From positions 6,713,302 through 6,777,301 of the forward strand of contig RPFO01000041.1 in the NCBI GenBank assembly GCA_009746045.1: a stretch of DNA of 64,000 bases, written 5' to 3'. This DNA is from Mesostigma viride (Eukaryota; Streptophyta; Mesostigmatophyceae; Mesostigmatales; Mesostigmataceae). The position numbers were made by a program, and so were the translations under genes. Below the pieces are notes generated by a model that worked only from the letters and a program-made list of their open reading frames with translations, was not told the DNA's origin and did not search any database. Of the stretch, positions 3,403 to 64,000 are shown in pieces. The number at the start of each line of letters is the position of its first letter. Positions within the stretch are counted from its first letter, which is position 1.

Positions 3403-4307
3403 GGGAGACGCTGTCGGACCAGAACCCTCCTGGACCTGGATACAGTACGGTGTAGCACCGTCGAGCGATTGGGAGGGAACTGGGGGGTGCGATCTGCGAA
3501 GAGAGTAGCGCGCTTTTCCAAGACGGCGTTGAACCGCGCCAGCTCGTCCGGAGTGAAGCCGACACCGATCTCGTTGAGCATGGCCTGAGTGCTGTCCAGG
3601 TCTATACGGTACATCGCATACTCCTTGCCCTTCCGAAGTTGACGTGCCAGCGTCTTGCTACTCATCAGGATCTGGGACGCTGGTCGAGGCCCGTCCGCCG
3701 AGCGCTCGTGTGTAATGTTATGGACCTCGGCGGCCTGTGCCCTATACTCACTGTCGGGGCACCAAAAGGATCCATCCGGAAACCAGACTACCCGTCGGCG
3801 TACACTGATGTCTACATCCTGCTTGTCCAACCAGTCCACTCCAATGATGATGTCTGCAGCGCCCAGCGGCGCAATAGTCGCCACCAGGTCCACCGGCGTG
3901 CCCTGCAGCACACCCTTGATGTCTGCTAGGCCCGGCGATTGGTGTCGCCGGCCATCCGAATAGGTGACATGCACTGCCGTGGTGTGTGGTCGGGGAACCA
4001 GGCCCAGCCGGCGCACCAGGGCCTCGTTGATGAAGGACGTGGAGGCGCCGGTGTCGACCAAAAACTTCACGTCCATGACCGTTTTCTCCTTCAAATACGG
4101 ATCAAGGACGGTGGGAGGAACCAGTAACCCTCCACTGAAAAGAAACAAATGTCGCGAGCCTCCTTGAGATGCACGCGCCGCCGGTTGGGTGGCCGCGTCT
4201 GAAGCCACGTTATTGACGTCTACCTCTACTCTAATTGACTCCGCGTCCGGACTACCATCTGATTTCTCTACCCTATCCTCTACCCCGGGGCCCAAGCCCA
4301 CGGGCAA
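3255..4307 (-). CDS. Gypsy aspartic protease (retropepsin) frame
   Basis: A retropepsin that would cut the Gag-Pol polyprotein. The active site is VDTGAS, followed by the flap-like region and the second conserved stretch IIIGVDWLD. The real protease runs from roughly residue 70 to 180; the rest links it to gag upstream and RT downstream. The frame is offset from gag (stop at 4313) and from pol. The useful coding sense leaves this frame near 3460-3470, where the pol frame takes over, so residues after about 280 are out-of-frame tail. The offset is either a programmed frameshift or a one-base mutation; I cannot tell which. Confidence 0.8.
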   Translation of the reverse strand: MPVGLGPGVEDRVEKSDGSPDAESIRVEVDVNNVASDAATQPAARASQGGSRHLFLFSGGLLVPPTVLDPYLKEKTVMDVKFLVDTGASTSFINEALVRRLGLVPRPHTTAVHVTYSDGRRHQSPGLADIKGVLQGTPVDLVATIAPLGAADIIIGVDWLDKQDVDISVRRRVVWFPDGSFWCPDSEYRAQAAEVHNITHERSADGPRPASQILMSSKTLARQLRKGKEYAMYRIDLDSTQAMLNEIGVGFTPDELARFNAVLEKRATLFADRTPQFPPNRSTVLHRTVSRSRRVLVRQRLPCTAWAQSSWWSSRRSSFRCSTPDSLNPATAPTQRACCSFPSQGASGGG

Positions 4308-8968: not shown

Positions 8969-10270
8969 ACTGAGCAGCTGGTGATCCTCAGGGAGGACAT
9001 CCACAGGCTCTGCACAGTTGGCAACTATCCACTCATGCCCAGAAGCAACAAAGCCAAGAGTCCATGCCTTAGCCATCTTGGGGCTTTGCATCATCTCCAC
9101 TAGCTTGCGCCAAGGTACAGGACTCGTTCCTGGGATCTGGTACCTCTGCACACCCAACTCACGTGGGTCAAACGTAGTAGGGAGGATCAGCAGGTCCCCA
9201 GCAATGGGCTCCTTTGTATCAGGACCCTCTGCCTCTAGACCCCTCACAGCCCTTACAGCCACACTAAGACCCTGGGAGTAGCGATATCTCTGCAAGGGAA
9301 GGCGGCCCTGCCCTTCTAATGCTAGCTCCTCAGAGGATATCCTCACCCCTGGTAAGCACAAGAAGTTCTGACCTAGAATGGCAGGCCCCTGATACCCTTC
9401 AACCACACTGAACGTGGTGGGCACCCCCAGGATAGGCACACTCACTTCTCCCAAGATCTTCATGGACACATTCCCAGAGAAATCAGACACAGCTAGGCAG
9501 CTAGGGGATGACCACTGCAAGCCTGCAGCATCCTCTACCCTTAGAATGGACACCTGTGAGTTGGTATCCACTTCTAGTGCTGGTGCCCCACATGACCCCC
9601 ATCCCGTGAGCTTAGATACCTTGGGATCACGCTTGCTGTTCTGCAGAGCTCGAATGATGTCCGCCATAAGCAGCCCCCTGGACTGTGGTGCAGCCCTGGC
9701 CACCTCTGGCCTTGTGACAGACGTCTCAGCAGACTCCTGCTCACCCTCATCCATCCAGGACAGACCATAATCCAAGCATGGTGGGTTAGCATCTGCTGCC
9801 TGGCTCTCATCCTGCTCATCTCCCTCCAAGGGAGGATCAGGGCCGTCTTCAGGCCAGATTGCAGTTGGCCTTCTCTCCTTGACGTGAGCCCAGGATAGCC
9901 TGTACACGTGCTTGGGATTACTCTCCAAAGCCACCAGACAAGAATGGTTAGCTTCCTCAACATGGGTTACCTGCCCATCTTGCCACTTGCCACGCTTGCC
10001 TGGTAATGACGGTTCCTTCCACATCCTGACCCTCAGTCCCACCTGGGGCCTCAGCATTTTCCAACCCTTGTCCTTACGCCTCAATCTGGAAAACACCCTG
10101 TCTGCCTTCTTCAGGCAGGCTGCCACCACGTCCTGTGATAGCATACCAAACTGCAATGCCAGGGGAGAGACTGCCACACCATCATAGTAATAGGTTACCC
10201 TGTGGTTAAGCTGCTCCTCAATCCCCTTACACCAAGCTGCTTTCTCTAGAGCTGATGCCACAACAGGCAC
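8966..10270 (-). pseudogene. Copia integrase C-term, retropepsin-like domain, RT start
   Basis: Residues 1-150 hold the integrase C-terminal region (RVRMWKEPSLPGKRGKW, a basic SH3-like strand set). Residues about 225-320 look like an aspartic protease: VDTNSQVSIL at the active site and PAILGQNFL at the second conserved strand. The end (IVANCAEPVDVLPED) is the entry to RT. Placing the protease after integrase differs from the usual Copia order. The active-site Gly is replaced by Asn, as it also is in the second copy. The N-terminus overlaps the end of the integrase frame by a frame break at about 10265. Confidence 0.7.
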
Positions 10271-11157
10271 ACTCTAGCTGCTAGCACCACTGTTTTTACT
10301 TCACGTATAGATCTCTCTACAGCTCCCTGCTGCCCATGGCATTCCCTAGGGACCACTACCAACTTACAAGGAAGCTGGTCAGCCAGCTTGATCAAGCAGT
10401 CAAACTGCAAGTCAGCTTGCACCTTGGTGTACACCCCAAAGCCTGGCAACAAAGACTGGAGACCCATCAACAGCTGATGCTCCTGCATTCCAGGAAGAAT
10501 GGTCAGCAACCTATATCTGCTAAACCTATCCACCCCCACCAACAGATACATGCCCCTGATGTGTTGGATGTCCACCTGGATATCCCCCCGCTCTCTAGCA
10601 GGTTCTCTGGCATGGGACTGTGGGAGGCGAACAGCATTCTCCTGACAGACACAATTCTGAGCAGCTGCACTGCAGGCCTCTAGCAAAGGCTCCTTGCCAA
10701 TCTTCCAAGCAAACATCTCTGCCTGCTTAGAGTGACCAAAGATATGGTGTAGAGTGTTTCCAGCCTGAGCATAGCTCAACCCCCTGTCAGCCTGGCTGCA
10801 CAGAGAGGAACGTGACAAAGACTGTGTGCTTGGGATAGCACGACCCACCTGCTGTTCTCTTGCTCCAGGGACCTCCTCCAAGGTAGCTCGGCTCCCAGAG
10901 CCAGCCCCGGTTCCCACAGAAGCTGCAGGTCCTTCCAGTCTGGCGGCTTGACTCCCAGAGTCAACCCCAACAACTGGAGACCCTGCACCTGCCACAGGCA
11001 CAGGGAATTCCACTGCTGCAGCAGCGTTATTGCAATCATTGAGTGGAAGCACCTCATCATTCCCAACCCCTTGCTGCTGCACAAGAGGGACACCCCCATT
11101 ACTATGTACAACTGTTCGTCCCACTAGGGGTGATTGACTATTTACAGGGGACAACAT
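10246..11157 (-). pseudogene. Copia-type integrase core
   Basis: Integrase joins element cDNA to host DNA. The N-terminal half is low-complexity (Ala/Gly/Ser). A zinc-binding-like region (HHIFGHSKQ ... NCVCQ) resembles a gag-pre-integrase fold. The core shows VDIQHIRG, VDRFSRYRLL, VQADLQFD and GQQGAVERSIREV, the last matching the Copia PQQNGVVER pattern with the catalytic Glu. The frame breaks after VVLAAR; the continuation VASALEKAAWCKGIEE is in the next frame. Confidence 0.75.
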
Positions 11158-11163
11158 CTCAAG

Positions 11164-12237
11164 TCATGGCTTACCCACCTGGCCAGAGCCTGCTCCAGCA
11201 GACTTGGCCTGGTCTGGGCAGTCACGTCGCCAATGACCCGTCCTGCCACATCCAAAGCATTTGTCATCCTTCCCAGCAGCAGCCTTCTTCAGGCCACCCT
11301 GGTTCTGGCTGCTCTGACTGGCCTGGGTGCCCTGGCCCTGGCTCTTGCCTTGCCCTTGGCCACCCTTGTTCTGCTGACCACCCTGGTGACCACCAGCCTG
11401 CTGCTGACCCTTGCCTTTGGATCCCTGCTGCTGGCCCTTGCCACCCTGGTTACCATTCTGCCTGCGCCTGTTAGCCCTCTGACGCCTACTAGGTCTGGTT
11501 TCTCCCTGAGCACCCTGCCCAGGGGCGTCACCATGGACCTGATGAGCGGAGGCTGAAGGGGCACCAGTCACCTGGATTGCCTTGCAAGCAGCATTGTCAG
11601 ATGGACGGATATTGAAAATAACCTTTTGCAAGGCTGGCCACGTCCCATCTGTCTGATCAGCAAACATCCTAGCTGCATTTCTCCCATCCACACTCAGCCC
11701 CATGCGATCCAGGAAGTAATCTGCCACTGCTCTATCAGTCAGATTGAAGCCATGCTTGGCCCCCTTCTCCCTGATGCGTGTGAGCCGCTGCAGCTCCTCA
11801 GCTATTGTGCCCTTGATCTCAAAGGTATCATAGCTGAGCTTATAGTGATTAGTGAGGTTGAGTACCTTATCAGAAAACTCCTGACGTAGGCCCTCTAGGA
11901 ACTGAGACCAAGTCAGCTTGTCCTTGACAGCCTGCCTAGCCTTGTCCCTCACCCGCTCACTTGAATCCCTATTAGTCGTGGATGTGTGGAATACCTGCAC
12001 AAGGTTGACAGTGGGATCTACAGAGCATGAAACTAGCTCCATATCCTCCAACCACTTGTCTAGCTCTTCCTGTCCCACAGGAGGCTTGAGAGGCTTCTGG
12101 CCATTCATCACAGCCACAGCACTCATATGAGGTCTAGTCCCAGGCAAAGCACGAGGGTCACTGCCAATGACAGCAGCTCCTACTGGTGCTAATGGCGCAG
12201 GAACATAGCTGCAGGAACACCAGACGCAGGCACACAT
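11164..12237 (-). CDS. Copia unit Gag with CCHC zinc knuckle
   Basis: Gag-like protein of 300-357 residues. The first ATG (MCAC) is likely not used; MSAVAVMNGQ, about 37 residues in, is a better start. A helical region (LTWSQFLEGLRQEF, ADYFLDRMGL) is followed by a long Gln/Gly/Lys-rich RNA-binding stretch and a canonical knuckle CFGCGRTGHWRRDC. It sits directly upstream of the integrase frame with no protease between. Confidence 0.8.
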   Translation of the reverse strand: MCACVWCSCSYVPAPLAPVGAAVIGSDPRALPGTRPHMSAVAVMNGQKPLKPPVGQEELDKWLEDMELVSCSVDPTVNLVQVFHTSTTNRDSSERVRDKARQAVKDKLTWSQFLEGLRQEFSDKVLNLTNHYKLSYDTFEIKGTIAEELQRLTRIREKGAKHGFNLTDRAVADYFLDRMGLSVDGRNAARMFADQTDGTWPALQKVIFNIRPSDNAACKAIQVTGAPSASAHQVHGDAPGQGAQGETRPSRRQRANRRRQNGNQGGKGQQQGSKGKGQQQAGGHQGGQQNKGGQGQGKSQGQGTQASQSSQNQGGLKKAAAGKDDKCFGCGRTGHWRRDCPDQAKSAGAGSGQVGKP

Positions 12238-20357: not shown

Positions 20358-20556
20358 CCAGTCCGGCCGGCAACCTGCCGGAGGAACGCGGACGCTAGCA
20401 AACACAAAAAATTTCACAGTGGACCAGTCCGGCCGGCAACCTGCCGGAGGAACGCGGACGCTAGCAAACACTAAAATTTCACCAGTTCGGCCGAAACGTG
20501 GACGCTAGCATAAATTACAAAAAAGACCGATCCGGCCGGCTGACGGCGGCCGCTAG
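20358..20556 (-). repeat. Hairpin-bearing tandem repeats at R1 3' end
   Basis: Two 48-bp copies (20358-20405 and 20424-20471) are identical by eye. Each holds the stem CCGGC-AACCT-GCCGG followed by AACGCGGACGCTAGCA. Two shorter, diverged copies follow (about 20482-20510 and 20527-20556). The last contains the ORF2 stop codon. HUH transposases recognise and cut at subterminal hairpins, so these are candidate end-recognition sites (inference). Confidence 0.7.
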
Positions 20557-22163
20557 CCCCACTTTGGGTCAAAGTATACTGCCATGACATGCTCCAATTC
20601 CATTTTCACAGTGTCACGGCTGCACAAAACAACTGCTGCATGGAACTTGCTCCTAGACATGCCTTGGGCATTTTTTGGGGCTACCCATGAGTCGTGGACA
20701 ACAAAATGCCCTGACCTATGCATGTGGAGTAAAACATCAGGCTCATCCATCCCATGCAAGTGGTTGGCATCAATATATCCGGCAACTTGAATGACAATAT
20801 TGCATGGGGTCAATGCAATCACCCCCTTGTCGAATTTATGGTGTTTGGCATACAAAATGCGACCCTCTTCTAAAATCTGAGCGGTGTTGCCTACATCAAA
20901 GATCTTCTTGAAATGTCCTTCCCCTGCCGCGGAGTCTTTCATGCAATACCCTGTCAAGCCTGCATAACAGTGCATATTGTTCTCAGCACATTTCCTTACA
21001 CGGACGGATGCCCCAGGTGGGGTCCTCATCCACCACCCCAAGGCCTCTGAAATACTGCGCCTCACGTAACAATCTCTACATGTGTACACTGTCACTACGC
21101 CTTGGATATGCAACTTTCCTGCGGTACGCCCGCGTTCACACACGCAAAGGCCACGTTTGGCGTGCTTGTCACACCATGCTAGGAAGGGGACGATGATAGT
21201 GTCATCAACATCATCGCCACCAGGGGGGTTAACGGTAATGCTGACATCCATCCAGCAAAATTCATGTTCTAAGGTTATTTTGGAGGGTTTTATTGTGGCT
21301 TTTCCATCCATGAAATCAGGGCACGTTGGCAAAACATCGGCATCATTGTCAACGCGACGCCTCTGACGTGGTCGCTGTGGCGGCGCCGCTGCAGCAGGAG
21401 CAGCACGCCGGGGCTGCCCTTGGTCAGGTGCAGATTGCAGAAATATTATGCCTGAACTAACAGCATTTGAAGGACCAGCTGCACCAGCGTTAGAAGGACC
21501 AGTTTCACAAGCGGTAGAAGGACCAGCTGCATCAGCATTTGAAGGACCAGGTTCACCAGCGTTAGAAGGACCAGCTGCACTAGGGCTACAAGGACCAGCT
21601 GCACCAGCGCTAGAAGGACCAGCTGCACCAGCGCTAGAAGGCCTTGCACCAAAGTTTAGACGACGACGGGCTTTTGGACCACTGTAAAATTCAAGGATTC
21701 CAGGATCGTTGGCCGCCAGCACCCGGTGTGCTCTTGTCATGTGGCATTTTAACCCACCAATGGACAGGAATGTTCGTTTACAATACTTGCACTGCGTTGG
21801 AGGTTGACGGTGTGCTGTCGCTGCGGGGTGCCGATCAACAGATGCCGGCGGAGATGCCGGCGGAGATGCCGGCGCAGTTGCCGGCGGAGATGCCGGCGCA
21901 GTTGCCGGCGGAGATGCCGGCGGAGTTGGAAAATGAAAAACATCGTCTTCGGATGGTGATGAAGGCGGAAGCATATGCACATCGTCTTCTTCATCTATTT
22001 CGTCTTCGGATGGTGGTGAAGGCGGAAGCATATGCACATCGTCTTCTTCATCTATTTCGTCATCATTGATAAATGCCCGATCGGCGCTGGTTTCTGGCCC
22101 CCCGTCGTCTTCATCGCCGTCATCACTAGAACAGCCAGCTTCCAGGTCGCAGAATTCACTCAT
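20553..22163 (-). CDS. HUH endonuclease (Rep-like) with C2H2 finger
   Basis: A 536-residue protein that would nick DNA and start rolling-circle transposition. Residues 1-70 are acidic, with a duplicated DEIDEEDDVHMLPPS repeat. Then come Pro/Ala repeats, a C2H2 finger (CKYCKRTF ... HMTRAH), a low-complexity PSNAG/PSSAG repeat, and a basic patch (RPRQRRR). The HUH domain follows: motif I at DVSITVNP, motif II at KLHIQGVV (HxQ form) and motif III at YCMKD with a single catalytic Tyr and a Lys (YxxK). About 110 residues follow without any Walker A or SF3 helicase motif. The ATG overlaps the ORF1 stop (ATGA). HxQ and YxxK forms are seen in CRESS Rep proteins and replitron nucleases. The frame is intact. 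Confidence 0.75.
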   Translation of the reverse strand: MSEFCDLEAGCSSDDGDEDDGGPETSADRAFINDDEIDEEDDVHMLPPSPPSEDEIDEEDDVHMLPPSSPSEDDVFHFPTPPASPPATAPASPPATAPASPPASPPASVDRHPAATAHRQPPTQCKYCKRTFLSIGGLKCHMTRAHRVLAANDPGILEFYSGPKARRRLNFGARPSSAGAAGPSSAGAAGPCSPSAAGPSNAGEPGPSNADAAGPSTACETGPSNAGAAGPSNAVSSGIIFLQSAPDQGQPRRAAPAAAAPPQRPRQRRRVDNDADVLPTCPDFMDGKATIKPSKITLEHEFCWMDVSITVNPPGGDDVDDTIIVPFLAWCDKHAKRGLCVCERGRTAGKLHIQGVVTVYTCRDCYVRRSISEALGWWMRTPPGASVRVRKCAENNMHCYAGLTGYCMKDSAAGEGHFKKIFDVGNTAQILEEGRILYAKHHKFDKGVIALTPCNIVIQVAGYIDANHLHGMDEPDVLLHMHRSGHFVVHDSWVAPKNAQGMSRSKFHAAVVLCSRDTVKMELEHVMAVYFDPKWG

Positions 22164-22570
22164 TGCTTGTCCTCTAACGCAGCTGCCTGATCCACTGCAG
22201 CCGCCTGCGCCTCTGCCCTGGCGTCCTCTTGCGCTTTCTCTAGCTCGTCACTTGCAAAAATTAGAAGAGGAAGCGCGCTGTAAAGCTTCTCTGCCGCATG
22301 CAGCTTTTTCATTTGCTTTTCCTTCTCCAGCCTGTCGACCGTCTCCGAGTCCTTCTTGAATTTTTTTTGCAAAACAAAAAAGTTCCGCCGAACTTGAAAA
22401 TCGTGGGTTTCTTTGGCAATTATCTCGCATTGTTTTTTGGCCTCGTCGCGTTCCCTTTTTGCCAGCAAAATACGAACGTCAAGGTCTGTGACTGTCAACT
22501 CATGATTGTCGCCAAGGATTGATATGATATTCTTTACGGCACCGCCGATACTGACAAAATTGTCTATTTC
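22160..22570 (-). pseudogene. R1 ORF1, 3' part: coiled-coil protein
   Basis: About 137 residues from IEIDNFVSIGG to ALEDKQ, rich in Lys, Glu and Ala. A strong coiled-coil pattern covers KRERDEAKKQCEIIAKE to EKEKQMKKLHAAEKL. The open frame runs left-to-right into the PAT element's B2 repeat, which supplies a spurious start at 22621. The true N-terminus lies at 28044 on the far side of that insertion. The stop TGA overlaps the ORF2 ATG. Function unknown; an accessory or oligomerisation partner of the HUH protein is an inference from position. Confidence 0.55.
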
Positions 22571-43141: not shown

Positions 43142-44026
43142 GTGCTTCTGACCCTGCTGTCCCTGTGGGTCCTCCTGTACCAGGTCACTTACTCAAGTTT
43201 CAGGCTAGGCTCCTCAACGTGCCAGTTCCCCTTGGCTCAGCCAGCTTGCTTGTTTATGATTGATTCTGGTGCTGGCAGTAATTATATTGCTGCATCCTTG
43301 GTGCAGGAGTTGAAGTTGCCTGTGTTGGCCCACCCCACACCTGTCATGGTGCAGTATTCTGATGGCAGGAGAAGCTGCTCACCTGGCTATGTGCAGCTCA
43401 TCTTCCAAGTTTGTTCATCCCAGACTTTGGAAGTGACAGCAGATGTCATTCCCCTCACGGCAGCAGATGTGATTTTGGGGATCCCATGGTTGTCTGACAC
43501 CAATCCTGCTATTTCTTGGCCTGACAGGGTGGTCCAGTTCAAGGATGGGACAGTGTGGGATGCTACCTGTGTGTTGCCAGGGGGGAGAAGAACAGCCACT
43601 GAGTGCTGTTCCACACAGACAGCTGTCAATGATGGCAAGGGAGGGGAAGCAGGTGCGAAAGGGGTGGATCAAGAGCCGACTTTGGAGGAGAAACGGGCTG
43701 CCCTACTGAAGCATGTGTGGTCTGCCAAGCATACTCTGTCTTATTTGGCCACCTATCCAGTGGAACACATCTTTTTCCTGCATTTGGTGCCTAATGAACC
43801 TGAGTCTGCTAGTGGTCATTCTGTCAATGCTGTCAGTTCTACTGTCACCACTGAGCAACAACAGCAGCATGATGCCTTGTTGGACAGGTATGGAGCCATC
43901 TTTGAGGACAAGATGCCCCAGTATCCTCCTGAGGGACCCATCACACATGTCATCAAGTTGGTAGAGGGTGCTCGTCCTCCTTTGTGCCTATGTACAGGAT
44001 GGGCCCTGCAGAGATGGCAGAGCTGA
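43142..44026 (+). CDS. Gypsy B aspartic protease frame
   Basis: Retropepsin with MIDSGAGSNYIA at the active site and VILGIPWLS as the second motif. The conserved QYSDGRRSCSPGYVQL between them closely matches gypsy A (TYSDGRRHQSPGLADI). The sense moves to the pol frame at about 43970. Confidence 0.85.
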   Translation: MLLTLLSLWVLLYQVTYSSFRLGSSTCQFPLAQPACLFMIDSGAGSNYIAASLVQELKLPVLAHPTPVMVQYSDGRRSCSPGYVQLIFQVCSSQTLEVTADVIPLTAADVILGIPWLSDTNPAISWPDRVVQFKDGTVWDATCVLPGGRRTATECCSTQTAVNDGKGGEAGAKGVDQEPTLEEKRAALLKHVWSAKHTLSYLATYPVEHIFFLHLVPNEPESASGHSVNAVSSTVTTEQQQQHDALLDRYGAIFEDKMPQYPPEGPITHVIKLVEGARPPLCLCTGWALQRWQS

Positions 44027-47000
44027 AGACCATACTTATTGGCCTGTTGGAGGCTGGTCTGATCCTCCCAGCTAACAGTCCTTTCAGTTCTGGGTGTTTG
44101 CTTGTACCCAAGCATGATGGGGGGTGGAGGTTGTGCATTGACCTGAGGGGACTGAACAAGGTGACTGTCAAGTCCAGGTACCCTCTGCCCAGAATTGATG
44201 AGTTGCTGGAGAGGACTGCAGGAGCTGCCTTCTTTACCAAGTTTGACCTCAGGCATGCTTTCTGGCAGATCAGGGTGGCTACTGAGGACATCCCCAAGAC
44301 GGCCTTTTCTACTCCATGGGGACAGTTCCAGTGGACAGTAATGCCCATGGGTGCCTCTAACAGTCCTGCCACTATGCAGATGTTTGTCAATGCCATCTTT
44401 GGCCACCTGACTGGAAATGCCCTGCCCCAGATCTCACCTGACCTTCGCAACCCCAGGTTCAAGGACATTGCCCACTTGTGTGACACTACCAGGGTGGTCT
44501 TCAGGACTTGTGTGGTCGTCTACCTGGACGACATTCTGGTACACTCTCGTACCTTCAGGGAGCATCTGGAGAACGTGGAGGAGGTCCTTAAGGTGATCCA
44601 TCAGTATCATCTGTCGGTGAAGAGGTCCAAGGTGGAGTGGGGCCAAGAGGTGAAGTTTCTGGGCTACCAGCTGAGCGCTGCAGGTATGACTCCTGAGGCC
44701 AGCAAGGTCTCTGCTGTTTTGGAGTGGCCTGTGTTGAAGTCAGCTCAGGATGTCAGATCCTTTCTGGGCCTGGTGGGCTGGTACCGACGGTTCATCCCTG
44801 ACATGGCGGCCATCTCTGGTCCCCTGTTAGCCCTGCTCAAGAAGGATGTTCCCTTTGAGTGGACTGCAGCATGCCAGCAAGCTTTTGATGTGTTGAAGCA
44901 GAAGCTTACCACTGCTCCCTTGTTGGTGGGCCCCAACCCAGACTTGCCATACCAGGTTAGGTCTGATGCCTCACAGGGTGCTATTGGTGCAGTACTAATG
45001 CAAGATCATGGTAAGGGCCCTCAACCAGTGGAATACATGTCCAGGAGTATGACGTCTGCAGAACGTAACTACCCTGTTCATGAGCAGGAGCTGCTGGGAT
45101 TGGTGGTGGCCTGTCACAAGTGGGAACACCTACTGAAGGGGGCTCAGTTTTCTGTGGCCAGCAGCGCCAGGGATGGGCAGGGCAACGAGTCTATTACCCT
45201 GATGACTGACCACAGGCCCTTGGTACATGTGTTGGAACAGACCCGGATGAGTAAGAGGATGGCTGGATGGATGGAGTTCCTGGGGGGGTTTGGACCTTTC
45301 TCTGTGAGGTACATTCCTGGTACGCAGAATGTGGTGCCTGACGCCCTGTCCAGGAGGAGGGATTTGATGGGAAGTTTTCATGAGGACTTGGACATCTGTG
45401 CTGCCCTGATTTCTGTGGTAGAGTGTGGAGCCTTGACTAGAGCTCAGGCCAACAACCAGAAGGTTTCTCAACTGTTGACACCACCTGTAGGGAATAACGG
45501 TGGTCCCGTGATGCTCATCGACCAGGGCTCTGTCCCAGAGTTGACAGGCGTCCAGGAGGGTGTCCAGTCACTGTCTGACAGTCTTAGGAGAAGTCCTGAA
45601 GGTGTGGTGCCCACTCCCACAGTGCAGCCAGGTGAGGGAGACCCTGCTAGGCGCAGCAGAGGTAGGCCCAGGAAGTGGGTCATGGACCCTGTGTTGGTAG
45701 GCCGGTCCAAGGTGTTGGCCTCTCAGGTGATGGCAAGGTCAAAAGGGCCTATAGCTACTACTGTCTCATCCAAGCAGTTGGTGGCTAGCCCTGGGCAGGA
45801 AGAGGAGATGCAGATGCAGCCCCTGGGACCTGACAAGGACCTGGTGTTGCCTAATCCTTTAAATATTTCCCTGCTGGACGTCATCAAGGCCTTCACCAAG
45901 ACGGAGGACATGGCTACTGCAGCTATCCAGAGGGGCAACTTTGGCAATAGACCTGTAGAATACTGGGAGGGCGTTCTGTATGTTCACACTCATGATGCAG
46001 AGCACACGGTGACTAGAAAAGTGTATGTGCCTGAGATGGCCATTCCCACAGTGTTACATTGTTTCCATGACGATGTGACTGCGTGTCATCCTGGTTATGC
46101 TAAGCTACTTCATGAGGTGCAGCAGAGGTTTTGGTGGCCTGGCCTTTATCAGGATGTTAAGGCCTATGTGGATTCCTGTGACTCCTGCCAGAGAAATAAG
46201 GTCAGGAACCAAGCCACGCCCATCTTTCCCATGGCTATGCCCATTCCCCTGCGCCCTTGGATCAGTGTGACTATGGATTTTATCTGTGGTCTACCCATGT
46301 CAGATGGTGGCAATGACAGGATCCTTGTGGTCATGGACAGACTTTCCAGGATGTGCCATCTGATTCCTTGCAATACTCATCTCACCGCTGCACAGTGTGT
46401 GGATTTGTTTATGAAGGAGATCTACCGTCTGCACGGCATGCCTAGAGTGATCATCACTGATCAGGACCCCCTTTGGTTGTCAGGGTTTTGGAAGTCATTC
46501 TTTGACATCCTAGACACTAAGCTGGCCTTCGGTGTGGCATACAGGTGTGCCAGTACTGGGGCGGTGGAGAGGATGAACAGAATTGTCAGGGAGTGTCAAA
46601 AGCACTATTGTACCCACGACAACAAGGACTGGGACAAGAAGCTACCTTTCATAGAGTTCGCAATCAACAACTCTCCTCTGGCTCCTCACCAGATGTCCCC
46701 CTTCGTGATCTGCAATGGCCAGTGTCCCTTGACACCATTCGACTTGGAACTGCCTGACAGAGACGCTGAAGGCCCTTTCCAGCGACGTCTTGGTTCAGTC
46801 CAGCAGTTGTTGGCTTCCTTCCAGGAGGCTCACAGCATTGTGGCTACCCAGCTGTTGAGGACACAGGACAAGTACCTGACTAACGCCTGGCAGCAAACGG
46901 TGGCCAGTCATTCCTTTGTAGCTCCCGGGGACTTGGTGTTGTTGGAAGCCAACAGAGTGCTGCCTGAGAAGGAGCAATGCAGGAAACTGCAACCACTCTG

Positions 47001-47538
47001 GTTGGGTCCTTACCCAGTGTTGGCCACCTTTCACTATGGTACCGTGGTCCAGGTCCAGGTGCCTTCTCACTGGAAGCTCAGGAATAATATTTTTCACCTA
47101 GCCCAGCTGAAGCTGTACAGGCGTAACACCTTGCCAGGCAGATTGTCTGCCCCCTTGCCTTATGAGTTGGATTCTGAGGGGGAGAAGATCTATGAAGTGG
47201 AGCGGTTGTTGGCTCACAGGGTGAAAGGGAAAGGTCGGACTAAACAGCTGCAGTTTAAGGTACACTGGAAGGGAGAGCTAGAGGTGACTGCTACGTGGCT
47301 GTGGTTGTCTGATCTCACCAACAGTCACTCTGCTGTACTAGATATTGTCAGCGTCATGGGATCACCTTGCCTGAGTGGTATGTCATGGGCTCTGAGCGGT
47401 GTGCTCCCCTTCATAGCTCCCAGTGATCGAGCACTGCTAACTCCCTTTTTGGTGCTGTGTGTCTGTGGTTGCCAGCCATGGCAGACTCCCATCCTGAGGG
47501 GACACCCAGGCCACCTGCCCAACTCCAAGAGGACGTGA
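43984..47538 (+). CDS. Gypsy B pol: RT, RNase H, integrase, chromodomain
   Basis: Open over 1184 codons. RT: FTKFDLRHAFWQI, then YLDDILVHS after an insertion (ALPQISPDLRNPRF...) equivalent to the one in gypsy A. RNase H: SDASQGAIGAVL. Integrase: zinc finger HPGYAKLLHEV ... CDSCQRNK, then TMDFICGLP, IITDQDPLW and AVERMNR. Chromodomain: YEVERLLAHRVKGKG to TATWLWLSDL. About 60 residues of low-value tail follow. Frame offset from protease as in gypsy A. Confidence 0.92.
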   Translation: MPMYRMGPAEMAELKTILIGLLEAGLILPANSPFSSGCLLVPKHDGGWRLCIDLRGLNKVTVKSRYPLPRIDELLERTAGAAFFTKFDLRHAFWQIRVATEDIPKTAFSTPWGQFQWTVMPMGASNSPATMQMFVNAIFGHLTGNALPQISPDLRNPRFKDIAHLCDTTRVVFRTCVVVYLDDILVHSRTFREHLENVEEVLKVIHQYHLSVKRSKVEWGQEVKFLGYQLSAAGMTPEASKVSAVLEWPVLKSAQDVRSFLGLVGWYRRFIPDMAAISGPLLALLKKDVPFEWTAACQQAFDVLKQKLTTAPLLVGPNPDLPYQVRSDASQGAIGAVLMQDHGKGPQPVEYMSRSMTSAERNYPVHEQELLGLVVACHKWEHLLKGAQFSVASSARDGQGNESITLMTDHRPLVHVLEQTRMSKRMAGWMEFLGGFGPFSVRYIPGTQNVVPDALSRRRDLMGSFHEDLDICAALISVVECGALTRAQANNQKVSQLLTPPVGNNGGPVMLIDQGSVPELTGVQEGVQSLSDSLRRSPEGVVPTPTVQPGEGDPARRSRGRPRKWVMDPVLVGRSKVLASQVMARSKGPIATTVSSKQLVASPGQEEEMQMQPLGPDKDLVLPNPLNISLLDVIKAFTKTEDMATAAIQRGNFGNRPVEYWEGVLYVHTHDAEHTVTRKVYVPEMAIPTVLHCFHDDVTACHPGYAKLLHEVQQRFWWPGLYQDVKAYVDSCDSCQRNKVRNQATPIFPMAMPIPLRPWISVTMDFICGLPMSDGGNDRILVVMDRLSRMCHLIPCNTHLTAAQCVDLFMKEIYRLHGMPRVIITDQDPLWLSGFWKSFFDILDTKLAFGVAYRCASTGAVERMNRIVRECQKHYCTHDNKDWDKKLPFIEFAINNSPLAPHQMSPFVICNGQCPLTPFDLELPDRDAEGPFQRRLGSVQQLLASFQEAHSIVATQLLRTQDKYLTNAWQQTVASHSFVAPGDLVLLEANRVLPEKEQCRKLQPLWLGPYPVLATFHYGTVVQVQVPSHWKLRNNIFHLAQLKLYRRNTLPGRLSAPLPYELDSEGEKIYEVERLLAHRVKGKGRTKQLQFKVHWKGELEVTATWLWLSDLTNSHSAVLDIVSVMGSPCLSGMSWALSGVLPFIAPSDRALLTPFLVLCVCGCQPWQTPILRGHPGHLPNSKRT

Positions 47539-57580: not shown

Positions 57581-58241
57581 AAGAAAGATGAGGATTTCTG
57601 TGTCGGTAATGTACTACAAAAGATGTGCAGTCGTAACGTTACTTTTAGTTACAGCTAGTAAAATTACTACCTATCACCCTACGTCGTAATGATTACGGCC
57701 TTGGATCTCACGCCTCGGATCTAGGTAGTAAGATAAGACCTCTTAATTTACGCCTCGGATGCTTTTTACCACCCTCGGACGAAAAGTATAGTGAGATCAC
57801 GTGAAGCGGGCCTGCCCAGCCCAGTGCAAGAAGGAGCACGCGGCTGGAACGCCCGCCCATGCTCCGGCAGGGTGCAAGTACCCAGTGGTCACCAAGACCG
57901 TGCAAGCACATGCAGAGGACATGGTGGCGGCCGACACGGCACGCCAACAGAGCAGGCAGCTGAGGTATCGGCAGCGCCGGCGTCACCCAGCCAACCGAGT
58001 GGGCAGGCGCGGCGGGGATGGAAGCGTATGGCGCGTATACGCTGGTGGAGCAACCCGACTTGTTCTGGGCTCCTATCCATGCCGTCGAGGTCCAGGCAGC
58101 TACCCGAGGCAAGCAGGCACGGGCATTGCCGTCGTTCCTACCAACCACGGGCAATGGTGAGGGGGGGCCACCCCAGCTTCCTGCATCGTTCCCGGCAGGT
58201 TCAACCGGCGGTGAGGCATCGCTGCTGGAGCACCCGAACCC
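57581..58241. other. Unassigned stretch
   Basis: An open minus frame (57708-58385) and open plus frames overlap here, but none has a domain. The frame at 57708 reads into the 141-bp repeat, so it is probably not a gene. Confidence 0.35.
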
Positions 58242-58382
58242 CTGTCGCGTCTGCGTACCACAATCTCCGGCGCCACCATGGCGGCTGGCCATGCTCAGCT
58301 TTGGTAAAACCCAAATGAGCTGAGCTGACGTGCCTGCCTTAACTGCATGCCCGGTGGGGTGGGCGAGGACCTGTCCCATGAT
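58242..58382 (-). repeat. 141-bp direct repeat, copy 1
   Basis: Matches 59556-59696 over its full length. In the minus orientation it starts ATCATGGGACAGGTCC. Confidence 0.8.
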
Positions 58383-59555
58383 CAACGAAAGGAGGGTTCT
58401 CAGCCGAGGACAAGGAATTGTCCCTCGTGCCTGATGACCACCTTAATGCTTTTGCCTCCCCTGCTATAGAACAATGTTTTCACAACACACACTTTGCACA
58501 GTCTGATGATGAAGCCGCACATGCGGAATTTATTGAGAAAGTTAATACAATTACAACACGTTGATAGTCTCAATATCGATGCACTCCATGCTCACGAGCC
58601 CGCAGTTAGGCAGCGCTCCATGACATGCTACCGGCCTTGCTCCCAAGGAAAGGGAGAAACACGAAGGCCACTAACGAGAGACTCGAAGAGACTACACGCT
58701 ACGTGAGAGTCCTCTTCGACTATGAACCAAACCATTCGTCATGCCACACGCATGACACACGCCACACTTGTCAGTCCAGCCAGGAATGCCCAAACTATCT
58801 TGCTGCCTGAACCATGCAAATAGAAACTGCATTCCAGTTGCCGTCCTGGCTTTCTACCACACATGCCAACAAAAGCAGGAAGGCATCCCGACAAATCTAA
58901 ATTGCTACCCTGTTGCCGATCTCATCTCCTAGAGGCTCCGGCATTTCTGTCCCTGGGAATGTCCGGCATTGAGTCACGACCACCAAGGTCGAAGCATAAT
59001 ATCCTTCAAACAATCTGCACGCTCACACCTTGCGTGTGAGTGGCCCAGCAAACATTGCTTCTAATCTTTCCTTTCTAGAAGAAATCCCTTTGTAGGGCTG
59101 CCAGCGATTTCGCATTCATTCCAGCGATCTGGCTCCGCACCGCAAATTGTCCTTTTCCATTTTCTGTCCAGTCCTCATAACGTTGACCCGCTATTCTACA
59201 CCACAAAGACACCTGGCCTGTCAATAGCCTCGGCGCTGTTGAAGTCCAGCAGTCCAGCTCCAGCTCCAGCTCCAGCTCCAGCTCCAGCTCCAGCTGTCCA
59301 CTAACTCGCGTATGATCCTCTCGACGCTGCGCACTTGTGCTGCCGTCCGCTCAAGTACGTCAGTGCTGCGCGCCCAGCCGTGCCTGGCCCGGCGCGCGCG
59401 CACGTGCACTTTCGTCCGCTCTTATGCTGCAAGTGCTAGTGTCCCCCCCCGGTCACTAGCCTTTGTCGAAAATGCGCAGAAAACAAATTCCTTGCGCACG
59501 TCACCGGTATTGTGCATAGTGGGCGCCCGGATGACATAGCTCGCGTCCGTGACAG
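58383..59555. other. Stretch between 141-bp repeats
   Basis: No gene seen. It contains a CTCCAG hexanucleotide repeat of seven units at about 59253-59298. Confidence 0.45.
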
Positions 59556-59696
59556 CTGTCGCGTCTGCGTACCACAATCTCCGGCGCCACCATGGCGGCT
59601 GGCCATGCTCAGCTTTGGTAAAACCCAAATGAGCTGAGCTGACGTGCCTGCCTTAACTGCATGCCCGGTGGGGTGGGCGAGGACCTGTCCCATGAT
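59556..59696 (-). repeat. 141-bp direct repeat, copy 2 (possible 3' LTR start of gypsy C)
   Basis: Lies directly after a G-rich tract (GCGAGGGGGGGAA on the minus strand, 59697-59709), which resembles a polypurine tract. If so, this is the start of the 3' LTR of gypsy C, interrupted after 141 bp. Confidence 0.5.
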
Positions 59697-59724
59697 TCCC
59701 CCCCTCGCTGGCTCTCATGGCTCC

Positions 59725-60062
59725 TCACATGGCCAGCGACCGTGCCAACACCACAGCAGCTAAGGAAATGGTGACGCTACTGGTTGCGAAACGGGCAGCG
59801 ACACAAACTGGGCAAAACCACTGGCCCGCTGGCACGGTGGTGAGCGCTGGCTGCAAGCAGTGCATGTGCCACCCACAATTACAGTGATCACACAGCAACA
59901 TGGTATCCCCCTGGTCTACGCGATGGCAAACCTGACACTGTGCGTCCTTGACCCGCCTGGCCGTGTGCGGGGCGAGGTCAGGCAATAAGTTGGGCAACGA
60001 ACACGGACTGAGGTTGCTTACGTTATCGGTGGTGCGACTGCCGTCGACGCCCTCCAAATGGC
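59725..60062 (-). pseudogene. PHD finger at integrase C-terminus
   Basis: PHD fingers read histone H3 tails. All eight ligands are present in C4HC3 order: CQVC, CDHC, GWHMHC giving His and Cys, then FCPVC with the conserved upstream Trp. The sense comes from the integrase C-terminus through a frame change at about 60060 (EGVDGSRTTDNVSNLSPCS) and ends at 59725. In chromoviruses a chromodomain sits at this place, so the PHD finger is its probable functional stand-in. Confidence 0.85.
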
Positions 60063-61190
60063 GACCCCAGATGGCTTGATGGCGACGATCCGCAAGATGG
60101 TCGGCCCCGCAGTCACGTCAAGAGTGTCGGTCAGCTGCGTGCGGAGAAAGACGAACTGCCCCGGACGAAAATGCAGCTGACGGGCCATGTAAGCGCCCCC
60201 CGGCGCTGAGCGTAGCGCAGGGTATCTCGGTGCTGGGCGATGAACAAGTTGTTCATGGCGATGGGCATAACCTTGCGGAAAGTAGCCGCCCGTGCGGTCA
60301 CCTCAGCCAGAAACTGACTGGCGTTGTCAAACGCCATAGGGGTGGGGTGTGCACTCTGCGCCTCCGTGGGGAGCAAGGGTGCGCGCCCAAACAACAGGAA
60401 ATACGGGGAGAAACAGGCGAGCGACTCCTGGGGTGACATTCGGTAACCCATGGCTATCCACGCCAGTTCACGATCCCACATAGTGAATGATGCTGACTGC
60501 AGGCTCCACTTGCGCAAAGCCTGCTTGACAGTCTGCACCAATCTCTCAGCCAAACCATTGGCCTGAGGATGCTCGCGAGAAGTGCGACGGTGATCAATGA
60601 GACATGCATCCAACAATTCCTGAAATTCCCCACGAAACTCCCCGCCCTGGTCGGTGACCACCTCCGCGGGGGCGCCAAACCTGGCGATGATGTCGGCGAA
60701 GTGCTTGGCGGTGGTGGCGGCCTGCTTGTCAGCAATGGGGATGAGCTCGACCCACTTGCTAAAACTTTCGACACACACCATGACATACTTGTGGCCATCT
60801 GCACTTTCATCAAAGGGCCCACACAGGTCTACGTGCCAGCGGTAGAAGAGCCCTCTGATGGGTAGGCTCATCAATTCTTTCGCATCGTGGTCCACATTGA
60901 ACCTGGCCTTCACCCGGGCACACTGCGCGCAGCTAGCGACGACCTGCGCGACTGTGGCACGCATGCCGTTCCACCAATAAGAGGCGCGCACTAGCGCCAA
61001 AGTGCGGTTACCACCCAGGTGGCCATACCGCTCATGGGCTTGCTGGACGATGGCGACCCGCTTGTGAGGCGGCGGCACCACCACTTTGCGCTTGCCGATC
61101 ATTTTGTGGAGGACCCCGGCATCCCACGAGTAGGTGACCGCCCTATGTTGCACCCTATTCAACTCAGCGTCACGCTGGGCTGAGGACCAA
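60063..61190 (-). pseudogene. Gypsy C integrase
   Basis: Sense starts in HPVDWSSAQRDAEL, just after the RNase H frame ends by a frame change at about 61197. Zinc finger: H43, H48, C78, C81 of the open frame at 61162. Core: D112 (WHVDLCGP), D171 (VVTDQGGEF), E206 (ANGLAERLV). The C-terminal part MARQLHFRPGQFVFLR is reached by a frame change at a G6 run (60199-60204). It continues to GPTILRIVAIKPSGVAI before the PHD finger. Confidence 0.88.
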
Positions 61191-63998
61191 TCAACGGGGT
61201 GGGGTGAGAGCTATCCCTTGGACCTGCTCCAACACACGCCCATCGAGCCACACATCACCCATGTTGCATTCCACTGTGAGATGGCCAACCAACACCACCT
61301 GGAGTGCTAGGTATCGTGCCAAGGTATTGTCAATGTCAAAGGACGGAGAATTACCTTCCTCCAACGCGAGGAGGCCAGCGGCAGGGGTGAAGGGAGAAGG
61401 GTGAACTGCATTGCAGCTTGCCGCAAAGTCTGCGACTGTATACTCGACTGCGCGCCAGTCTGCCTCGGCGTCGGCGTCAGCGAAGCCTGCAGCATTAACA
61501 AAAACCACAGACCCAGGCGAGCTCTCGGCCCCTAGGGCCCGCGCACCAGTGTTGTCAACAGTGGTTGGTAGAGCATACCTGGACAGGACGTCCGCGTTGG
61601 AGTGATCCACACCTGGCCGATGGACGATTGTCAGGTGGTACTCCTGAATGATCATTGCCCACCGGGCCAGCTTACCCGTGAGTTTGTCGCTGGTCATCAA
61701 CCACAATAAGGGCTGGTGATCAGTGACAAGTGTGAACACCCGCCCAAAGAGATATGGCCTGAAGTGCTTGATGGCCCACACAACGGCTAACGCTTCCCCC
61801 TCGTAGGAAGAGTACCGACTCTCGGCAGAGTTGTTACTCCGACTAGCGTACGCGATAACATGCTCGCGCCCCGCATCGTCCTTTTGTGCTAGCACAGCCC
61901 CTAGGCCTACCTTGGACCAATCGGTGTAAAGAATGAAGGGCAGAGCATAGTCGGGGGCGCGTAGGATAGGAGCGGCAGTCAGTTCCTGTTTGATGGTATC
62001 GATGGCTCGCTGCTGAGCCGGACCCCACGCCCAGACATTGCCCTTCTTCAACAACTCAGTCAGGGGTTTGACTTTGGTGCTGAAATTCTGAATATATCCT
62101 CGATAATAGCCAGCTAGCCCGAGATACGCGCGCACCCCCGAGATGTCGATGGGCACTGCGGCGTTGCTGATGGCTTCCACTTTGGCTGCCTCAGGGGTCC
62201 GGCCACCTGGTACAATCTGATGACCAAGAAACCCTATGGTCTGTTGGGCGAACTTGCACTTTTCAGGGTGCAGCCGCAGGTTGGCCTTATCTAGGGCGAT
62301 CCGAACCTGATCGAGGTGAGCTAAGTGCTGGTCAAATGTCTCGCTAAAGACAATGACATCGTCTATGTAGCAGGCTGCAAATGGCAACCCTGCCAGCACC
62401 TGGTCCATGGCACGTTGGAACACCGCACTAGCGTTGCGATGTCCGAATGGCATGCGAACCCACTCGTACAGACGGGTCCCACCCCAAAAGGCCAGCTTGC
62501 GCTGATCTGCCTCTACGACCTTGATCTGATGGAAGCCGCTACGCAAATCTAGCGACGACACATACTTGACCTGGGGAGATATTTTATCCAAAACATCATC
62601 GACCCGAGGCATGGGGTACCTATCAACAGGAGTGTGCGCGTTCAGCTGACGCAGGTCAGTGGCCATGCGCATACCTGTCCACTCGCCTGTGATGGTATCC
62701 TTCTTGGGTGCGACCACCGTGGCAGCTGCATAACTGGAGGATGAAGCGCGGATGATCCCAGCTGCCTCTAGCTCTCGACAGTTAGCATCTACGAATTCCA
62801 GCTCAGCCAAGCTCAGCCTATGCTGCCGCCTGAATAAGGGCTGATCCGTATCTAGTGGGACCCCCATGCAGCCCCCGTTGTAGCACCCTAGTTCTTCACT
62901 GCTGAAAGCGAATACTGAGCGTGCAGAATGCAACCAGTGCTCCATAGCCTTGCGTTGCGTGGCGGTGAGGTGCTCACCTATGGCCCATATGTGAGAGGCA
63001 GCAGGATCTGCGACTGCGGCACTCCTACTGTCGAGACAAGGCCCCCGGACAGCGGCATCGTGGAAAAGGGAAAATGCGGCTACACCGGGTGTGACGCTCA
63101 CCTGCTGAATGGCACGGACTGCGCGACCGACCGATTGCTGCAGGGTGGGCGCTCCAGCGAACACCGTGCTGGACAACAAGGACGTCATGAGGATAACGCT
63201 CCATAGTTGAAGCAGCCGCGATCTCCATGGCGACCCAGTGCCGCCGGACGCTGTTGGCCGGACACCAGCCGCGTGGGCACTGACAGGCGGTGGCGGTGTG
63301 GGGATATCTCCCCCACCCTGGCGCACTTGCATTGCGGCCCGCAGAACATACCCAACCTGGAAGGCTGACATGGCTTGCCCAACGAGAGACCACCTAGTGG
63401 CCTCTAAAACCCCCTCAGCGGCGGACGCCCCCACATGGAACCCCATGCTCACCTCCCGAAACTCAGCGGGCGGCTGCACCAACAAACCCGTACCGGTGTC
63501 CCATACCAAACCCTTGCCCCGGTCCCTGTAGGCCGATGACCCCTGGTAACTAACCAAGGTGGGAAGAGCGCACATAGGCTTACCTACGTGATTGACGGGC
63601 GCGTAAGGGTGCCGATCGGCGACGTCTACCCGCTGCGTGACCAAATGTGGTGGCAGCGCCACCTCCGCGGGCATGCCGTCGTGCTGTCGTGTGATCGCAT
63701 CTACCACTGCCTGGATGGTGGTGGTGAGTGCAAGGTTGGTCCAGAATGCGCGGTACCTGTGGGTGAGCCCGCCCAATCCTGCATTGTCGCACGTGACTGG
63801 TGCCCCTAAGATGTCCACGATCTGGGCCCAGTCCTTCCTCACTACCTCGTGAGGGCTGTCGTCGGCCACCACGTTCTCAAAAAGATACGCTAGTGGCTGG
63901 TCCTGCAGCTGCTGCAAGAGTCCAACGACTCGAAGCAGATCCCAAAACAACCCGCTCCTAGGATCCGCAAGCCCGCGTCCTACGCCGGCCTGACTCAA
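61191..63998 (-). CDS. Gypsy C pol: DNMT (partial), RT, RNase H
   Basis: 935 open codons; the true N-terminus is outside the window. Residues 1-225 are the C-terminal half of a C5-cytosine methyltransferase (next entry). Residues 230-300 include a hydrophobic run (LLQLWSVILMTSLLSSTVFA) of unknown meaning. RT spans about 380-640 with SLDLRSGFHQIK, MPFGHRNASAVFQ and YIDD at 544-547. RNase H spans about 680-810 with YTDWSKVGLGAV, EGEALAVVWAI, TDHQPLLWL and NADVLSRY. No protease motif lies between the methyltransferase and RT, so protease must be upstream. Confidence 0.9.
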   Translation of the reverse strand: MSQAGVGRGLADPRSGLFWDLLRVVGLLQQLQDQPLAYLFENVVADDSPHEVVRKDWAQIVDILGAPVTCDNAGLGGLTHRYRAFWTNLALTTTIQAVVDAITRQHDGMPAEVALPPHLVTQRVDVADRHPYAPVNHVGKPMCALPTLVSYQGSSAYRDRGKGLVWDTGTGLLVQPPAEFREVSMGFHVGASAAEGVLEATRWSLVGQAMSAFQVGYVLRAAMQVRQGGGDIPTPPPPVSAHAAGVRPTASGGTGSPWRSRLLQLWSVILMTSLLSSTVFAGAPTLQQSVGRAVRAIQQVSVTPGVAAFSLFHDAAVRGPCLDSRSAAVADPAASHIWAIGEHLTATQRKAMEHWLHSARSVFAFSSEELGCYNGGCMGVPLDTDQPLFRRQHRLSLAELEFVDANCRELEAAGIIRASSSSYAAATVVAPKKDTITGEWTGMRMATDLRQLNAHTPVDRYPMPRVDDVLDKISPQVKYVSSLDLRSGFHQIKVVEADQRKLAFWGGTRLYEWVRMPFGHRNASAVFQRAMDQVLAGLPFAACYIDDVIVFSETFDQHLAHLDQVRIALDKANLRLHPEKCKFAQQTIGFLGHQIVPGGRTPEAAKVEAISNAAVPIDISGVRAYLGLAGYYRGYIQNFSTKVKPLTELLKKGNVWAWGPAQQRAIDTIKQELTAAPILRAPDYALPFILYTDWSKVGLGAVLAQKDDAGREHVIAYASRSNNSAESRYSSYEGEALAVVWAIKHFRPYLFGRVFTLVTDHQPLLWLMTSDKLTGKLARWAMIIQEYHLTIVHRPGVDHSNADVLSRYALPTTVDNTGARALGAESSPGSVVFVNAAGFADADAEADWRAVEYTVADFAASCNAVHPSPFTPAAGLLALEEGNSPSFDIDNTLARYLALQVVLVGHLTVECNMGDVWLDGRVLEQVQGIALTPPR
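63324..63998 (-). other. C5-cytosine DNA methyltransferase domain (C-terminal half)
   Basis: DNMT domain fused in frame to RT. Seen: GLFWDLLRVVGLLQ leading to LFENVV at residues 40-44 (motif VI, ENV); LTHRYRAFWTNL at 79-89 (motif VIII, as in the HRxRYFWGN box of DNMT3-type enzymes); a target-recognition stretch; PTLVSYQGS at 147; PAEFREVSMGF at 177-187 (REY-x-LMGF box of motif IX); and RWSLVGQAMSAFQVGYVL at 202-219 (motif X). Motif I (FxGxG) and motif IV (PCQ) should lie upstream, beyond base 64000, and cannot be checked. The likeness is best to DNMT3-type enzymes (inference from memory). Confidence 0.8.
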
Positions 63999-64000
63999 CC

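Follow-up and report, generated by a model that had tools for sequence, protein, structure and literature searches.

A multi-copy Ty3/gypsy retrotransposon family of Mesostigma viride with a DNMT3-type methyltransferase domain in pol, split repeats and a possible circular intermediate

Retroelements that encode DNA methyltransferases (DNMTs) invert the usual picture in that the parasite bears the host's tool for silencing parasites. The closest described system is KnitGypsy-Dnmt3 of the streptophyte alga Klebsormidium nitens, for which the main text of de Mendoza et al. (2018; PMC5890265) describes a Gypsy element whose pol frame includes a Dnmt3-type domain, the combination of DIRS-like repeats with Gypsy domains and purifying selection on the DNMT. 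According to the same text, SymbioDIRS-Dnmt3 and SymbioLINE-Dnmt from Symbiodinium are likewise retroelements with DNMT domains, the Dnmt3 of SymbioDIRS being located in pol and occurring in two domain orders. More generally, DNMT-carrying retroelements have been stated to occur in streptophytes (main text of PMC12344493, from which Mesostigma is absent) and in green algae and charophytes (relevant passages of PMC6338049), and we found no report of a DNMT element from Mesostigma in the open-licence literature searched (listings and main-text passages). Here, we analyze a stretch of 64,000 nucleotides from Mesostigma viride (assembly GCA_009746045.1, contig RPFO01000041.1, positions 6,713,302 to 6,777,301), hereafter called the window, the right end of which carries a Ty3/gypsy element with a DNMT3-type domain in pol on the minus strand.

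An earlier sequence-only reading of the window had considered this element a possible new case or new lineage. The kind as such is already known from KnitGypsy-Dnmt3; as far as the literature was searched, the Mesostigma case adds an ECQ active site, a PHD finger, element ends with 4-bp duplications and a palindrome. Compared with the published description of the Klebsormidium element, it stems from the same host division but another algal class, and its motif IV reads ECQ whereas key residues are reported as conserved in Klebsormidium. Moreover, its pol ends in a PHD finger, a term absent from the main text of PMC5890265, and we did not encounter 4-bp duplications, TGTC/GACA ends or a palindrome in that text. 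The Symbiodinium elements differ in depending on a tyrosine recombinase or on the machinery of long interspersed nuclear elements (main text of PMC5890265), whereas the Mesostigma element has a Gypsy reverse transcriptase (RT) and a DDE integrase.

In the window, an open frame of 935 codons runs from position 63998 to 61194 on the minus strand (list of open reading frames, ORFs). The claim that DNMT motifs follow each other in the expected order here and continue into RT and RNase H without a stop has been borne out: ENV, HRYRAFW and LPTL precede RVT_1 at residues 431–595 (E 7.7e-28) and RNase H at residues 683–787 (PF17917, E 1.9e-38) in Pfam. With regard to PF00145, the outcome was divided. 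The window fragment alone stays below the cut-off (17.3 vs. 22 bits; E 0.0033, residues 1–43 only), and among PDB entries its best DNMT match, DNMT3C, scores poorly (E 0.18, ranked after two unrelated proteins), while longer relatives match, i.e., a gene model with the source name 'Mesvir1', which we take to mean Mesostigma viride (P0001; E 1.6e-11), that shares 73% identity with the window fragment over 160 residues, and the genomic copies L016 (42.1 bits) and L014 (40.8 bits). L016 and P0001 are nearly identical over their aligned DNMT region.

Extension of the contig by 4 kb past the right edge of the window (L009) showed that the DNMT frame runs upstream into GWECQGLSQAG, i.e., motif IV. 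GWECQ is located 2–6 codons upstream of the first full window codon and the codon for the catalytic cysteine 5–7 bases past position 64000. Motif I (LELFAGMGGG) follows about 280 bases past the edge, in another frame of the window copy. The expectation that motif I and PCQ would be present upstream was thus confirmed for motif I and for the catalytic cysteine, but not for the preceding residue, which is glutamate instead of proline. With the frame reaching motif IV and relatives passing PF00145, the assignment as a Ty3/gypsy element with a DNMT domain in pol stands. The window copy itself is a decayed, 5'-incomplete remnant, because its pol frames are broken (frames 1, 2, 1, 2, 1, 3 relative to the open copy L016) and its 5' repeat A1 was found neither in L009 nor in the 3 kb further upstream. 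One of the breaks separates motif I from motif IV within the DNMT, beyond the window edge, and the case therefore rests on the relatives. In addition, integrase and RT of the window copy are in different frames, whereas the open copies L016 and L014 have one frame for both.

In L016 and L014, Pfam places DNMT, RT, RNase H, integrase and PHD finger in single open frames (L014 scanned without its last codon). For this reason, we rejected the explanations that a host DNMT gene and a retroelement are neighbors by coincidence or that the assembly is misjoined there. The weak PF00145 score of the window copy alone would be in line with such an artefact, but its probability is negligible given these two copies and two metagenome proteins: P0002, from a separate source, combines DNMT and RT in one protein according to Pfam, and P0004 exhibits RT, RNase H, integrase and PHD finger by Pfam and a DNMT by alignment (38.9% identity to the L016 DNMT over 301 residues, PF00145 not being among its Pfam matches at E ≤ 0.1). 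The order RT-RNase H-integrase together with a Gypsy-type RT is that of Ty3/gypsy elements, and the best PDB matches are Ty3 Gag-Pol for pol (E 5.4e-82) and foamy virus integrase for the integrase (E 8.8e-19). A zinc knuckle is present in pol of L016 and in the gag frame of L014, both under the curated cut-off, and P0001 contains a protease-like match, also below cut-off.

The methyltransferase part contains motif I, the catalytic cysteine of motif IV, ENV, HRxR and the C-terminal part in the order expected of a C5 cytosine methyltransferase. Among solved C5 methyltransferases, it is closest to DNMT3 by sequence profile, and motifs I, IV, VI and VIII as well as the C-terminal part align with the catalytic domains of DNMT3A and DNMT3B, from which it differs by the glutamate before the catalytic cysteine and by residing in a polyprotein. 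An AlphaFold model of P0002 predicts the same fold, with DNMT3 and HhaI tied and not separated; the model is poor overall (mean predicted local distance difference test score 43.5, residues about 40–200 being the better part) and, as P0002 carries PCQ, uninformative on the effect of ECQ.

A search of the genome with the PF00145 profile yielded 127 rows, a lower bound in that 123 of the 415 first-look candidates were scored. As read by eye from the table, at least 58 of them bear the two score signatures of the DNMT-element family, 28 at 43–45 bits over model positions 3–114 and 30 at 35–39 bits over positions 61–116. Eighteen of these 58 (L010–L027) were opened, which together with the window copy gives 19 copies. 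A DNA pattern for GWECQG matched the genome exactly 298 times (142 and 156 on the two strands) and a reversed control not at all. Among the matches listed, all but one use one of three codon versions, and these fit the three subfamilies seen, namely the L016 type, the L014 type and the window type with L025. Given 298 motif IV matches, the architecture, called rare in the sequence-only reading, is not rare within the Mesostigma genome. Pol is open over 2074 codons in L016 and L017 and over 1642 codons in another copy, C1613. The open copies are nearly identical to one another, and the elements are numerous and look recently active.

The proline before the catalytic cysteine of motif IV is nearly invariant in C5 methyltransferases; motif IV reads GWECQ in all 19 opened Mesostigma copies, and among the metagenome relatives PCQ occurs in P0002 and P0003 (two of three) and ECQ in P0004. 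Absence of a catalytic PCQ had been named beforehand as an argument against a DNMT. To the letter this absence applies to the copies opened, yet all retain the catalytic cysteine. With ECQ in place of PCQ, catalysis is uncertain, and the domain might have been kept as a non-methylating binding module for S-adenosylmethionine or DNA, as a structural module, or for another substrate such as RNA. The glutamate in 19 of 19 opened copies and in P0004 would agree with this, as would the lack of detectable methylation by the Klebsormidium enzyme in yeast, a result that its authors call inconclusive (main text of PMC5890265). Nevertheless, we consider a loss of methylation unlikely: the catalytic cysteine, the motif VI glutamate and the histidine and arginine of motif VIII are invariant in six aligned sequences, the DNMT is better conserved between subfamilies (65–77%) than the neighboring linker (51–61%; RT 79–85%), and SymbioDIRS DNMTs are active in yeast (main text of PMC5890265).

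Selection was assessed with our own Nei-Gojobori script. For the DNMTs of L016 and L014 (298 codons), nonsynonymous divergence (dN) is 0.274 and synonymous divergence (dS) 2.8, a ratio of 0.098 in which, at this divergence, dS can only be taken as high; the ratio for L016 vs. L026 is 0.115. L016 and the window copy share 77.3% of 251 residues, with saturated synonymous sites (proportion of synonymous differences 0.785). Judged from these alignments, ECQ retains its glutamate at a distance at which neutral sites are randomized, across subfamilies with a conserved DNMT.

Protein searches, one of which scored only the 7992 candidates sharing most words, returned gene models labeled Mesostigma, metagenome proteins and distant retroelement or PHD proteins, none of them labeled Klebsormidium. 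In P0002, the DNMT precedes RT, while P0004 (1668 residues) has the order RT, RNase H, DNMT region, integrase, PHD finger. A small, unrooted RT tree of eight sequences unites P0004 and the Mesostigma elements in one group (0.997). In integrase, P0004 shares 47% identity with them, as compared to values of 25–30% for three other gypsy elements and of 35% for a fourth, the latter along a short stretch. The DNMT thus occupies two pol positions in what is apparently one lineage, and the domain has therefore moved or was taken twice.

Instead of two equal long terminal repeats (LTRs), the elements contain split repeats in the order A-coding-B-A-B. In C1613, which is of the L014 type, A1 (384–1511) is followed by the coding part with its stop at 9906, a polypurine tract, B1 (9918–10054), A2 (10055–11182) and B2 (11182–11318). 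A2 equals A1 over 1128 nt, B2 matches at 99.3%, and GGCC flanks both sides. The element ends read TGTC...GACA. Five of ten fetched end pairs could not be tested, as the A found there was the internal A2 behind B1; four of the other five show a 4-bp duplication (GAAA, TGGT and TTCT, the last at one locus and again at its duplicate). When L020 (GAAC) and C1613 (GGCC) are counted, 4-bp target duplications exist at five of six independent testable sites. From these ends and duplications it follows that a DDE integrase inserts the elements.

Split direct repeats in this order are a property of PAT and DIRS elements (main text of PMC5890265), and the DIRS order was noted there for the Klebsormidium element as well. 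Circling in the manner of DIRS/PAT by a tyrosine recombinase, with the integrase as a relic, would account for the repeats. It is very improbable in view of the 4-bp duplications at five independent sites, which DIRS/PAT elements should not produce, the TG..CA ends, the 74% conservation of the integrase between two subfamilies and the absence of a tyrosine recombinase from the Pfam matches of six ORFs scanned from two copies.

All five internal B1-A2 joints fetched from other copies read GACAGC-TGTC, and this GACA-GC-TGTC palindrome equals, by its sequence, two joined, unprocessed ends. Foamy virus integrase cuts the palindrome of joined LTRs symmetrically and leaves a 2-nt 5' overhang (PMC1180852). 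The 2-LTR circle of foamy virus resembles the Mesostigma element in the palindromic joint of two ends, which forms from LTR ends in the virus, whereas the integrated Mesostigma copies examined retain it internally. In all three subfamilies, B1 directly adjoins the polypurine tract. Plus-strand DNA should therefore begin with B, and the linear complementary DNA (cDNA) should read B-A-coding-B-A, with plus-strand synthesis starting at the tract and minus-strand synthesis just behind A. The ends of this cDNA would join into a circle and create the A-B joint seen in A2-B2, whereupon integrase would cut behind CA in one of the two GACA-GC-TGTC palindromes, leaving CA-3' ends and 2-nt overhangs, and insert A-coding-B-A-B, the genomic form. 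The data on the ends would thereby provide a concrete answer to how DIRS-like split repeats can work with a DDE integrase.

Of 913 candidates for the A2-B2 joint, 40 matches were scored and all 40 preserve it, which is compatible with a circle and equally with transmission by RNA. Without a circle, the joint would be copied from the parent RNA, the 3' LTR would be A-B, the 5' LTR would have lost B long ago, and insertion would be linear as usual. The conserved joint would suit this route, and so would the TTCT locus (C2111 and its duplicate), which consists of one A-B unit flanked by a 4-bp duplication, resembles a solo LTR and matches the expected product of recombination between A1 and A2. 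The position of the polypurine tract speaks against it, because a usual plus strand would then start with B1 and not with the genomic TGTC end, and so do the two extra nucleotides at the B1-A2 joint, which are expected of joined unprocessed ends. Overall, we regard this linear route as possible, though rather doubtful.

We therefore favor, as the probable account, a multi-copy Ty3/gypsy element with a DNMT3-type pol, a circular intermediate cut by integrase and possible methylation of cDNA. Several points weigh against it. No intact DNMT can be produced from the window copy, motif IV is altered, and the Klebsormidium enzyme was silent in yeast as mentioned above. The DNMT ratio is 0.41 for the close copies L014 and L026, on very few changes, so that selection is shown between but not within subfamilies. 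The circle is inferred, not observed, and the A2-B2 joint could pass via RNA. One end pair (C1956) has no target duplication, five further pairs gave no test, and the two ends lie 16.7 kb from each other in the GAAA pair and 18.8 kb in the TGGT pair, with unread interiors. The ends of L017 with L051 do not fit cleanly, the 3' side of L017 being irregular, and no primer-binding site starting with TGG was detected by eye behind A in the three subfamilies.

As to the role of the DNMT, the enzyme may, if it resides in the same particle, methylate CG sites before integration, either in the double-stranded cDNA or in the circle. Mesostigma DNA contains 5-methylcytosine, mostly at CG (relevant passages of PMC6947507), and a role favoring the element seems most likely, which would arrive already methylated in such a host. 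In comparisons between copies, CpG transitions account for 64 of 212 substitutions, while CpG columns make up 14–16% (16 pairs that share three reference copies and are not independent). This excess fits heritable CG methylation of the elements and does not indicate the enzyme responsible. A wider proposal, that in a gypsy lineage of green algae the normal route is a two-repeat circle reopened by integrase at the palindrome, and that the elements' own ECQ DNMT3 methylates circle or cDNA before insertion, is put forward tentatively and may well not hold. If true, a retroelement would arrive already marked as host-like DNA. About 300 motif matches, at least three subfamilies, near-identical copies and published bisulfite data make it testable whether new copies are methylated on arrival and whether the host methylome depends on the elements. 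The nearest solved relatives of the PHD finger by sequence include BAZ2B, BAZ2A, a demethylase lid, WSTF and ATXR5, several of which read unmodified H3K4; it is a guess that recognition of histone H3 by the finger may direct insertion.

Table 1. Features of the DNMT-carrying element in the window (positions refer to the window).
Feature	Position	Strand	Remarks
DNMT3-type methyltransferase, C-terminal part	63324..63998	-	Residues 1-225 of open frame; motifs, Pfam and relatives
ENV	63870-63878	-	Within DNMT part
HRYRAFW	63741-63761	-	Within DNMT part
LPTL	63555-63566	-	Within DNMT part; followed by C-terminal REVSMGF...GQAM segment
Reverse transcriptase RVT_1	62214..62708	-	Frame shared with DNMT part; Pfam
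RNase H, PF17919 and PF17917	61638..62027	-	Pfam
Integrase	60134..61210	-	Pfam; H2C2 zinc finger 60902-61075, rve DDE core 60566-60844
PHD finger, end of pol	59803..59937	-	Pfam; ORF 59728-60117
Polypurine tract GAGGGGGGGA	59697..59706	-	Abuts repeat B1
Repeat B1	59556..59696	-	141 nt, identical to B2
Palindrome GACAGCTGTC at B1/A2 joint	59551..59560	.	Element ends GACA and TGTC, 2 nt apart
Repeat A2	58383..59555	-	About 1173 nt; matches 5' end repeat A1 of other copies
Repeat B2, element 3' end	58242..58382	-	Terminal GACA at 58243-58246

Further observations concern individual copies. The end of another copy directly precedes the first B-A of L016, head-to-tail, L017 starts with B after unrelated DNA, resembling a linear cDNA end, and the expected 3' end of L018 was absent at the place fetched. 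In the window, positions 58001–58242, abutting the end of the element, correspond to a part of the L014-type subfamily in antisense (97.9% identity over 242 bases), and here one DNMT element has probably inserted into another.

A PF00145 search also detects multi-copy bacterial-type C5 methyltransferases in the Mesostigma genome, comprising ten equal-score rows with a 364-codon frame (seven of these being L002–L008) and a second set of 16 equal-score rows with a 313-codon frame. L002 and the single-row L001 match TIGR00675 dcm, and no mobile-element domain was present in the few neighboring frames scanned. In viral contigs, an exact 29-base stretch of the window was not found, and 51 pattern matches for relatives of the pol profile gave no confirmed case (patterns used only).

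The window harbors two more Ty3/gypsy pol frames, at 160–3657 (minus strand) and 43933–47535 (plus strand), with a chromodomain at the pol end, where the DNMT element has its PHD finger, and with no DNMT match in Pfam. DNMT-free gypsies therefore coexist with the DNMT family. An ORF at 20556–22247 (minus strand) encodes a HUH endonuclease domain of the Replitron type (PF21859, E 8.4e-12), Replitrons being a class of mobile elements.

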